64,000 bases of DNA. It comes from Haloferax sp. Q22. Its GTDB lineage: Archaea > Halobacteriota > Halobacteria > Halobacteriales > Haloferacaceae. Each line of letters begins with the position of its first letter. The first letter of the stretch is position 1. The notes below the pieces were generated by a model. The model saw nothing but the letters and a program-made list of their open reading frames with translations. It was not told where the DNA came from and did not search any database. Made by a program: the position numbers and the translations under genes. Of this stretch, positions 5,058 to 58,069 are shown piece after piece. Location: the NCBI RefSeq assembly GCF_001482285.1, contig NZ_LOEP01000016.1:186001-250000 (forward strand). Reading direction: 5' to 3'.

Positions 5058-5130
5058 GCCCGGGTGGTGTAGTGGCCCATCATACGACCCTGTCACGGTC
5101 GTGACGCGGGTTCAAATCCCGCCTCGGGCG
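5058..5130 (+). tRNA. tRNA-Asp (anticodon GTC), copy 1
   Basis: The 73-nt cloverleaf folds cleanly: acceptor GCCCGGG pairs with CTCGGGC, the anticodon stem CGACC/GGTCG encloses CTGTCAC with GTC at 5092-5094, and the T-stem GCGGG/CCCGC encloses TTCAAAT. Discriminator is G. CCA is not encoded and no intron is seen. It is identical to the copy 29 nt downstream. Confidence 0.97.
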
Positions 5131-5159
5131 CTCTCCGTACCGCAAACTCACTTCAGTAA

Positions 5160-5232
5160 GCCCGGGTGGTGTAGTGGCCCATCATACGACCCTGTCACGG
5201 TCGTGACGCGGGTTCAAATCCCGCCTCGGGCG
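5160..5232 (+). tRNA. tRNA-Asp (anticodon GTC), copy 2
   Basis: Identical in all 73 positions to the copy at 5058-5130. The last bases of this copy begin a 52-bp direct repeat that returns at 5439-5490, so the downstream fragment field starts at its 3' end. Confidence 0.97.
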
Positions 5233-5270
5233 CTTTTCCGAACGTTACAGGCCAAGCGACGCGTCTTGTC
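5219..5270 (+). repeat. Direct repeat unit 1: tRNA-Asp 3' end plus flank
   Basis: This 52-bp stretch (end of the T-stem, 3' acceptor strand and about 38 bp of flank) recurs without mismatch at 5439-5490, 220 bp away. The shared flank includes CGCTTTTCCGAACGTTACAG. The second unit has no tRNA 5' part. Confidence 0.9.
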
Positions 5271-5309
5271 GCGTCGTGACCCCCAACGTGCTGTAAACGC
5301 CCAGACAAA

Positions 5310-5389
5310 GGGATTTGAACACGAACAGTCGTATGCCCGCACAGCGACCGAAGGGAGCGAGCAGGAACGTCTGTGAATGGGTTCAAATC
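5310..5389. repeat. T-arm inverted repeat with long loop
   Basis: GATTTGAAC at 5312-5320 is the reverse complement of GTTCAAATC at 5381-5389. Between them lies AGCGACCGAAGGGAGCGAGC, a variant of the core found in the neighbouring hairpins. A second small hairpin (CTCGGCGAGACGAAGTCTCGCCGA-like, about 5390-5413) follows directly. Confidence 0.7.
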
Positions 5390-5438
5390 TCGGCGAGACG
5401 AAGTCTCGCCGACGTGCCACTCGCTCCGCTCGCGGCAC

Positions 5439-5490
5439 TCCCGCCTCGGGCGCTTTTCCGAACGTTACAGGCCAAGCGACGCGTCTTGTC
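5439..5490 (+). repeat. Direct repeat unit 2: orphan tRNA-Asp 3' fragment
   Basis: Identical to 5219-5270 over 52 bp. It carries the T-stem end and acceptor 3' strand of tRNA-Asp but no D-arm or anticodon arm, so it cannot make a tRNA. Confidence 0.9.
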
Positions 5491-5527: not shown

Positions 5528-5600
5528 GGGATTTGAATCGGGGAGCAATGCGAACGGAGTGAGCGGAGCGACCGAGGTTCAAATCCCGCCTCGGGCGCTT
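5528..5600. repeat. T-arm hairpin element plus tRNA-Asp 3' fragment
   Basis: GGGATTTGAA (5528-5537) and TTCAAATCCC (5578-5587) form a perfect 10-bp inverted repeat. The loop holds GGGGAGC and ends GCGACCGAGG. The right arm is the tRNA-Asp T-loop and T-stem and continues through the acceptor strand to CGGGCGCTT at 5600. Confidence 0.85.
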
Positions 5601-5677
5601 CTCTGATTTCAACTCCTCCAGCGAGGCGTCTCGTCGCCGAGCGACAGCGAGTGGAATCTGTAAGCGGTGACAGGTGG

Positions 5678-5734
5678 GATTTGAACCAAGGAGCGACGCG
5701 AGCGCCAGCGAGCAAAGCGACCGAGGTTCAAATC
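5678..5734. repeat. T-arm hairpin element without acceptor end
   Basis: GATTTGAACC (5678-5687) pairs with GGTTCAAATC (5725-5734). The loop again contains GGAGCGACG and ends GCGACCGA. Unlike the 5528-5600 copy it does not continue into the acceptor strand. The whole 5233-5808 stretch holds no credible gene. Confidence 0.8.
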
Positions 5735-57515: not shown

Positions 57516-57589
57516 GTCCGGGTTGGGGTAGTGGACTATCCTTCAGCCTTGTGGAGGCTGAGACGCGGGTTCAATTCTCGCACCTGGAC
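57516..57589 (+). tRNA. tRNA-His (anticodon GTG)
   Basis: G-1 is encoded (57516) opposite discriminator C73 (57589). Acceptor TCCGGGT pairs with ACCTGGA, the anticodon stem CAGCC/GGCTG encloses TTGTGGA with GTG, and the T-stem GCGGG/CTCGC encloses TTCAATT. No intron, no encoded CCA. The TATA-like GTATTTTAG lies about 35 nt upstream. Confidence 0.96.
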
Positions 57590-57660
57590 CTCTTCTTTAC
57601 ATTTCGACCGGTGAGCGCCGCGTAGCGTGCGCGAACCCATTCTCGAAATGTACTGTGAGG
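57569..57660 (+). repeat. Long direct repeat unit 1: tRNA-His T-arm plus flank
   Basis: 92 bp beginning with the T-loop of tRNA-His and running 71 bp past its end. The same 92 bp return at 57851-57942, 282 bp downstream, with one mismatch (AAATG against AACTG). Confidence 0.9.
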
Positions 57661-57666
57661 GACGAC

Positions 57667-57728
57667 TGCGAGAATTGAGCCAGGGAGCAACTTGTTGCGA
57701 CCGAGGTTCAATTCTCGCACCTGGACCT
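57667..57728. repeat. T-arm hairpin plus tRNA-His 3' fragment, copy 2
   Basis: TGCGAGAATTGA (57667-57678) and TCAATTCTCGCA (57708-57719) form a perfect 12-bp inverted repeat. The loop has GGGAGC, an inner GCAAC/GTTGC hairpin and ends GCGACCGAGG. The right arm continues through the acceptor strand to GGACCT. Confidence 0.88.
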
Positions 57729-57811: not shown

Positions 57812-57861
57812 GAGAATTGAATCGGGGAGCGAACGAAGTGAGCGACCGGGGTTCAATTCTC
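57812..57861. repeat. T-arm hairpin, copy 3
   Basis: GAGAATTGAA (57812-57821) and TTCAATTCTC (57852-57861), perfect over 10 bp. The loop is TCGGGGAGCGAACG, then AAGTGAGCGACCGGGG. The right arm is the beginning of long direct repeat unit 2. Confidence 0.88.
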
Positions 57862-57942
57862 GCACCTGGACCTCTTCTTTACATTTCGACCGGTGAGCGC
57901 CGCGTAGCGTGCGCGAACCCATTCTCGAACTGTACTGTGAGG
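57851..57942 (+). repeat. Long direct repeat unit 2
   Basis: Second copy of the 92-bp tRNA-His-derived repeat. It contains the T-loop, 3' T-stem and acceptor strand but none of the 5' half of the tRNA. Confidence 0.9.
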
Positions 57943-57949
57943 TGTGGCT

Positions 57950-58069
57950 GCGAGATTGAATCAGGGAGCGATGCGAACGAAGTGAGCAGAGCGACCGAGG
58001 TTCACGCGAGTGAAACGAGCGTGAGTACGTGAGGCGGAGCCTCACGCCGTTCAATTCTCGCACCTGAAC
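57950..58069. repeat. Disrupted hairpin and tRNA-His 3' fragment, copy 4
   Basis: CGAGATTGAATC and GGGAGCGATGCG open another copy, but the right arm is cut: GACCGAGGTTCA ends near 58003 and the fragment resumes as GTTCAATTCTCGCACCTGAA at 58049-58068. The insert contains its own GTGAGGC/GCCTCAC hairpin (about 58028-58046). The 57590-58095 region has no credible gene. Confidence 0.75.

Follow-up and report, generated by a model that had tools for sequence, protein, structure and literature searches.

No landing sites of archaeal and bacterial mobile elements are better known than the 3' ends of tRNA genes. Archaeal integrases that use these sites (SNJ2, pNOB8, pTN3 and others) target the T-arm or the 3' end, keep the tRNA intact and place a partial copy of it on the far side (PMC8371274). 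Family 2 casposons also insert at a tRNA 3' end with target duplication, and their casposase recognises TCAAATC in the leader (PMC6614799). Palindromic repeats of a different sort, the PATEs and SMRs, have been described in Haloquadratum (PMC3119063). In the tyrTV operon of Escherichia coli K-12, where our comparison covers the tRNA-Tyr locus, the 19 nt at the 3' end of tRNA-Tyr recur without a mismatch three times at 178-bp spacing. In every unit, the 10-nt inverted copy GGGGAAGGAT precedes the direct ATCCTTCCCC by 101 nt, and a hairpin lies between them.

Our analysis of a 64-kb stretch of the genome of Haloferax sp. Q22 (hereafter the window) revealed units of ~145-200 bp arrayed behind tRNA-Asp and tRNA-His (Table 1). 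Each unit consists of a variable hairpin A followed by a long hairpin B. On its left arm, hairpin B carries 10 nt of the local T-arm in inverted copy; its right side repeats the last 20 nt of the tRNA in direct orientation, from T54 to the 3' end. Because hairpin B ends in a direct copy of tRNA positions 54-73, the unit sits between two 20-bp T54-to-3'-end copies and the tRNA remains intact. The arm pair is GGGATTTGAA...TTCAAATCCC behind tRNA-Asp and GAGAATTGA...TTCAATTCTC behind tRNA-His, the left arm being in each case the reverse complement of the T-arm of that tRNA.

A first-pass annotation of this DNA had proposed that the hairpins of the two loci share a core, with GGGAGC-like boxes on the left and arms that follow the local tRNA. 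A scan of the window confirmed the core, two of whose coordinates had been placed one base off: GCGACCGAGGTTCAA occurs exactly at 5568-5582, 5717-5731 and 57697-57711, and variants with one mismatch occur at 57842-57856 (GCGACCGGGGTTCAA) and 57991-58005 (GTTCAC). The first two cores follow tRNA-Asp(gtc) and the remaining cores and variants follow tRNA-His(gtg), with left boxes and arms as proposed at both loci. Every core of this type in the window is the right foot of a long hairpin, and the hairpins B fold on the tRNA strand with z-scores of -3.7 to -6.8 relative to 200 dinucleotide shuffles. Taken as a plain 15-mer at 3 mismatches in the window alone, the core is not significantly enriched (8 observed vs 4.6 expected); its significance derives from its position, its arms and the genome-wide and class-wide data. 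The only Rfam matches in the window were tRNAs, and the only match in a search of plasmid records was the neighbouring SDR gene. Two differing palindromic inserts, at 5390-5439 and 58005-58049, are both nested in T-loop copies. Inserts resembling the former occur at the orthologous tRNA-Asp locus in other species, and the type of the latter is present in other Haloferax species.

Table 1. Features of the two tRNA-associated arrays (positions in the window; R1, covariance model, see text).
Feature	Positions	Strand	Basis and details
tRNA-Asp(gtc), first copy	5058..5131	+	ARAGORN, Rfam
tRNA-Asp(gtc), second copy, followed by the array	5160..5233	+	ARAGORN, Rfam
Hairpin A of Asp unit 1 (variable trailer segment)	5234..5309	+	Fold z -1.5, weak; unit types a/b/c common across species
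Hairpin B of Asp unit 1	5310..5389	+	Left arm GGGATTTGAA 5310-5319, right arm TTCAAATC 5382-5389, interior atypical; sequence, unit finder
Hairpin-rich 50-bp insert splitting the tail copy of Asp unit 1	5390..5439	+	Tail restarts at 5440 (CCCGCCTCGGGCG); sequence
Hairpin B of Asp unit 2 (singled out by the first-pass annotation)	5528..5597	+	Left arm 5528-5537, core 5538-5577, T54-to-3'-end copy 5578-5597; z -3.9; R1 74.8 bits
Hairpin B of Asp unit 3	5676..5734	+	Left arm 5676-5685, core 5686-5726, right arm 5727-5734, tail copy beyond decayed; z -4.9; R1 63.4 bits
tRNA-His(gtg), followed by the array	57517..57590	+	ARAGORN, Rfam
Hairpin A of His unit 1 (TACATTTCGA...TCGAAATGTA)	57591..57667	+	Fold z -2.2; unit type A1 across species
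Hairpin B of His unit 1	57668..57726	+	Left arm 57668-57679, core 57680-57706, direct tail copy 57707-57726; z -6.8; R1 59.1 bits
Hairpin B of His unit 2	57812..57871	+	Left arm 57812-57821, core 57822-57851, direct tail copy 57852-57871; z -3.7; R1 64.4 bits
Hairpin B of His unit 3, right arm broken after TTCA	57952..58004	+	Sequence; R1 48.1 bits
Second palindromic insert (CGCGAGTGAAACGAGCG...) in the T-loop copy of His unit 3	58005..58049	+	TTCA on either side; sequence

The association with tRNA genes extends to the whole genome. At up to one mismatch the core matches 16 places; in 14 cases the place follows a tRNA or is one of the two matching ends of a tRNA-Met contig (the tRNAs being Asp, His, Phe, Ser, Met, Val, Glu and Arg). 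About half of the 50 tRNA genes have an 8-mer of their T-arm, inverted or direct, within ~250 nt downstream, and almost none have one upstream beyond the copies in neighbouring tandem tRNAs. An alignment of 20 units fits a structure of 16 pairs, in which 89.7% of positions are paired, 11 pairs are changed on both sides and covariation is 0.365 (vs 0.177 in shuffles). The covariance model R1, built from these 20 aligned copies and used with a cut-off of E <= 0.01, has 28 matches in the genome: 26 directly behind a tRNA, one displaced and one unrelated (C14:74913). This is not the dispersal in intergenic regions that is typical of REP sequences and PATEs. Two of the 26 matches follow tRNA-Pro(cgg), a tRNA absent from the Rfam list, and another is the start of contig C56, which repeats the other contig end with the tRNA cut off. 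This contig is broken within a tRNA-Met array; since the same unit stands at both of its ends, the repeats seem to break assemblies. The GA palindrome GAGCGAANGNAGTGAGCG has 7 matches in the genome, all 7 at tRNA flanks, and we discarded the idea of a generic genome-wide GA palindrome because in this genome it is found at tRNAs only.

These units are widespread in haloarchaea. R1 matches 231 of 242 Halobacteria genomes, which represent 72 of the 74 genera. In a draw across the whole phylum, it matched nearly all genomes of Halobacteria and 1 of about 231 from other classes. We took 100 distinct strong matches from about 70 genomes, and 99 have a tRNA on the same strand 23-342 nt upstream. When named genomes were scanned blind with a 16-mer, about 22 of the loci were haloarchaeal, 18 of them behind a tRNA with fitting arms, and about 58 were bacterial or other, none of which has the element; as a string match alone, the 16-mer is also present in 44 viral contigs. 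The units are a Halobacteria-specific family of non-coding palindromic repeats that accompany tRNA 3' ends. The earlier suggestion of one hairpin family, placed nearly exclusively at tRNA 3' flanks, is borne out by the data from this genome and from the class, and a core occurring mostly away from tRNAs was not found. The first-pass annotation also knew of no named element with this behaviour. The family seems to lack a name in the open-access papers that we searched, among which the archaeal integrase review, the Haloquadratum repeat paper, the tRNA-fragment paper and the REP survey contain no description of these arrays. Since the search was confined to open-access literature, this is weak evidence of novelty, and the E. 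coli tyrTV/RtT repeats do share the layout.

The anatomy of the units is sharply defined relative to the tRNA. The direct copy, as measured across 184 units, runs from T54 to the mature 3' end (complete in 140 of them), and the inverted copy spans T54-63. The two Gs before T54 are the element's own, yet identical, and the right junction is GTTCRAA in nearly all units. In 99 matches, the left arm has on average 1.15 mismatches of 12 to its own tRNA and 2.63 to shuffled tRNAs (minimum 2.31 of 1,000 shuffles), the values for the right arm being 0.22 and 2.38. This covariation with the local tRNA, anticipated from the two loci of the window, covers more than 20 isotypes and many genera, and a general failure of the arms to fit the local tRNAs of other loci was not seen. 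At 1,840 arm positions, there are 65 departures from the tRNA in the left arm alone, 27 in the right arm alone and one in both jointly (0.39 expected); the unit finder allowed each arm at most 2 mismatches to the tRNA, which limits the visible departures without favouring single over joint ones. Since nearly all departures are single, the arms are copies of the tRNA and not a self-compensating stem. The first-pass proposal that the element copies the T-arm in reverse when it inserts fits the arms, each of which matches the tRNA without mutual compensation, but the insertion itself is something that we only infer.

In the core between the inverted and the direct copy, a tandem G.A/A.G mismatch is nearly invariant, being present in 142 and 140 of the 142 units with the usual core (the right-hand GA belonged to the core filter, the left-hand GA did not), and the pairs next to it covary: L8-R0 is CG in 109 units and TA in 28, and L7-R1 is GC in 109 and AT in 25. 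Two candidate readings were rejected. A kink-turn or box C/D guide does not fit, because the GA motif has Watson-Crick pairs on both sides and no three-base bulge agrees with the covarying pairs. Pure palindrome correction does not fit either, as it is at odds with the persistence of the G.A mismatches and with arms that do not track each other.

The family changes rapidly, and whole units are gained or lost as blocks. In 15 Haloferax species, the tRNA-His arrays read A1-A2-A1, A1-A2, A2-A1(truncated), A1, A2 or none, and the tRNA-Asp arrays are made of unit types a, b and c in varying order and number. Two close species (G014 and G001) differ by exactly one 142-bp unit between flanks that are 98.7% identical; this may be a deletion, because the unit type also occurs in other species. 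In another relative (G007; L371, L377), tRNA-His apparently stands twice in tandem before the array. Variation also occurs below the level of the unit: in orthologous tRNA-Asp arrays the interiors of hairpin B vary independently of hairpin A, and hairpin A is common to different isotypes (up to 93% identity over 61 nt), with the arms fitted to each tRNA. Such arm switching with a common hairpin A is found between Gly(tcc) and Gly(ccc) and between Val(cac) and Val(gac). Finally, a single tRNA-Lys is followed by four identical 111-bp units.

We tentatively propose, with confidence that falls just short of even, that the units behave as a non-autonomous cassette that restores the tRNA, takes its T-arm copies from the target and forms arrays that then evolve by recombination among the 20-bp tails. 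The observations on which this proposal draws directly are the anatomy, the specificity, the adaptation of the arms, the block-wise gain and loss, and the sharing of interiors. The sharp copy boundaries, the restriction to tRNA flanks and the arms that fit their own tRNA without compensation all speak for it, and so do the 142-bp presence/absence difference, the varied unit orders, the hairpin A common across isotypes and the identical units behind tRNA-Lys. The parts that we infer are the insertion, the T-loop break and the copying step. Units would enter, now or formerly, through a break or strand exchange at the T-loop's first base, with a moving form that may be single-stranded DNA or RNA, and during entry the local T-arm would be copied around the hairpin once in each direction. 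Later, the repeated tails might recombine, so that the arrays grow, shrink and shuffle. Several points stand against the cassette. No recombinase or transposase was linked to the units. A tyrosine-recombinase crossover in the T-loop between tRNAs would give a chimeric tRNA, so that the cassette depends on an assumed copying step. Homologous recombination or slippage between repeats can also produce the gain and loss of blocks, their shuffling and the tandem identity, and no fresh unit in a never-occupied tRNA was seen among the compared arrays. We are more doubtful about a broader version, in which a class-wide, non-autonomous mobile cassette would break the tRNA gene at the first T-loop base and copy the target T-arm both ways around its hairpin, so that almost any tRNA could be used unharmed, with tyrTV as the bacterial case of the same process.

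Selection on a transcript could instead explain why the units are always on the tRNA strand. Under this explanation, which we consider unlikely, hairpin B would be transcribed by read-through from the tRNA promoter and selected as a trailer RNA (for processing, stability, or as a sponge or small RNA), as in RttR of the tyrTV operon, an annotated small RNA of E. coli with the same layout. The strong covariation of the core and its near-invariant tandem G.A mismatches agree with such a role. At one core pair, G.T outnumbers A.C on the tRNA strand by 43 to 3 (p about 5e-10), which is at most suggestive of a folded tRNA-sense strand: no such excess is found at the other core pairs (10 vs 9) or in the arms (19 vs 11), and its confinement to one pair position makes this weak evidence of strand bias. 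Some Haloferax species have no unit at the same tRNA, so the unit is not essential there. Moreover, arms that follow the tRNA and not each other are not predicted by selection for pairing alone.

The array dynamics might also be thought sufficient by themselves. An old hairpin behind tRNAs could have been amplified and kept uniform by nothing more than unequal recombination, gene conversion and replication slippage, acting between the tRNA-tail copies. By our reasoning, every order of the Asp and His arrays can be derived from a longer ancestral array by deletion or duplication. The identical units in tandem fit this process, and repeat-mediated deletion, partial tRNA copies included, is on record in Haloquadratum (PMC3119063). 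Yet, these dynamics do not explain why the inverted T-arm copy is always that of the local tRNA, how hairpin A spread between isotypes or why the direct copy ends at the mature 3' end and not in the flank, and replication-based palindrome correction should have erased the conserved G.A mismatches. We find such a passive origin rather improbable, though, like the trailer-RNA role, it keeps some probability.

The integrase elements of this genome make it very improbable that hairpin B is the attR end remaining after deletion of a provirus or plasmid. The idea has appeal, since archaeal integrases favour tRNA 3' ends above other targets and attR is marked by a partial tRNA copy (PMC8371274). We rejected it because three integrase elements end without hairpin B. 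One, of ~6.5 kb, lies in tRNA-Thr(cgt) (C26:168679-175338) with the core CCCTCCACCGGCT on each side, and parts this tRNA from an old hairpin unit (C26:168679), which stands beyond the far end of the element, placed as it would be behind the bare tRNA. Two candidate elements, in tRNA-Ala(agc) (~12 kb, C45:151000-163344) and tRNA-Arg(ccg) (~3 kb, C45:249179-252400), each have an integrase and a far-end tail copy that is likewise not bounded by hairpin B. The units are thus not ordinary att scars; their size and layout are, furthermore, stereotyped in 231 of 242 genomes. Elsewhere (C4:17956-19269), an integrase gene lies beside a second tRNA-Tyr(gta), which is divergent, has a changed acceptor end and is perhaps carried by a plasmid or provirus. 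As for chance likeness of GC-rich palindromes near tRNAs, GC-rich DNA does readily form GA-rich palindromes, but this explanation has practically no probability left and is refuted by the counts: 99 of 100 strong matches lie behind tRNAs, stretches that by strand make up an estimated ~0.6% of a genome, the GA palindrome of this genome is confined to tRNA flanks, and the roughly 58 non-haloarchaeal matches of the 16-mer in the blind scan lack the element.

The occupation of tRNA 3' ends by one repeat family in nearly every haloarchaeon has several consequences. The family provides a model for target-copied arms. Its arrays account for many haloarchaeal 'partial tRNA' signals, which are open to misreading as provirus ends, and the puzzle of the E. 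coli tyrTV repeats becomes a comparative question. Because Haloferax volcanii is genetically tractable, the RNA and DNA readings can be tested directly.

The units share traits with several known systems. Like integrase att sites, they lie at the tRNA 3' end, leave the tRNA intact and are flanked by a duplicate of its 3' end. They differ in being hairpins of ~100-200 bp without a gene, with no integrase gene between the repeats and too short to hold one. The casposon motif TCAAATC is the T-loop sequence that is duplicated in the archaeal units. However, casposons have terminal inverted repeats and cas1 and duplicate 14-15 bp downstream of the motif, whereas the archaeal units duplicate 20 bp starting at the T-loop itself, and the inspected unit sequences of ~100-200 bp have no terminal inverted repeat of the whole unit. 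REP sequences, PATEs and SMRs (IS200/IS605-related) are likewise short non-coding palindromes and partly strain-specific, but PATEs and SMRs are dispersed and untied to tRNAs, PATEs lack target duplication, and none of these repeats has been described with target-copied arms. Integron attC sites resemble the units in having an imperfect single-strand hairpin beside the junction and cassette arrays of varying order. The attC consensus is GTTRRRY; this R' box is not found in the units, where the universal T-loop gives GTTC, and the units have neither an integrase nor a reading frame.

The closest likeness in layout is with the tyrTV/RtT repeats, which have the same order of tRNA tail, spacer, inverted copy, hairpin and direct copy, in tandem units each with a copy of the tRNA 3' end, as in the archaeal arrays. 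The E. coli copy differs by starting inside the T-loop and including the encoded CCA, and the interior is different. The RtT model (RF00391) has four matches at E. coli tyrTV (133-138 bits) and no match up to E 1 at four archaeal loci. One of the four E. coli matches falls between the two tRNA-Tyr genes (L400:911-1695). By this comparison, we file the archaeal units as built, and presumably working, like the tyrTV repeats (RF00391, rttR, tpr), and not as members of the RtT RNA family.
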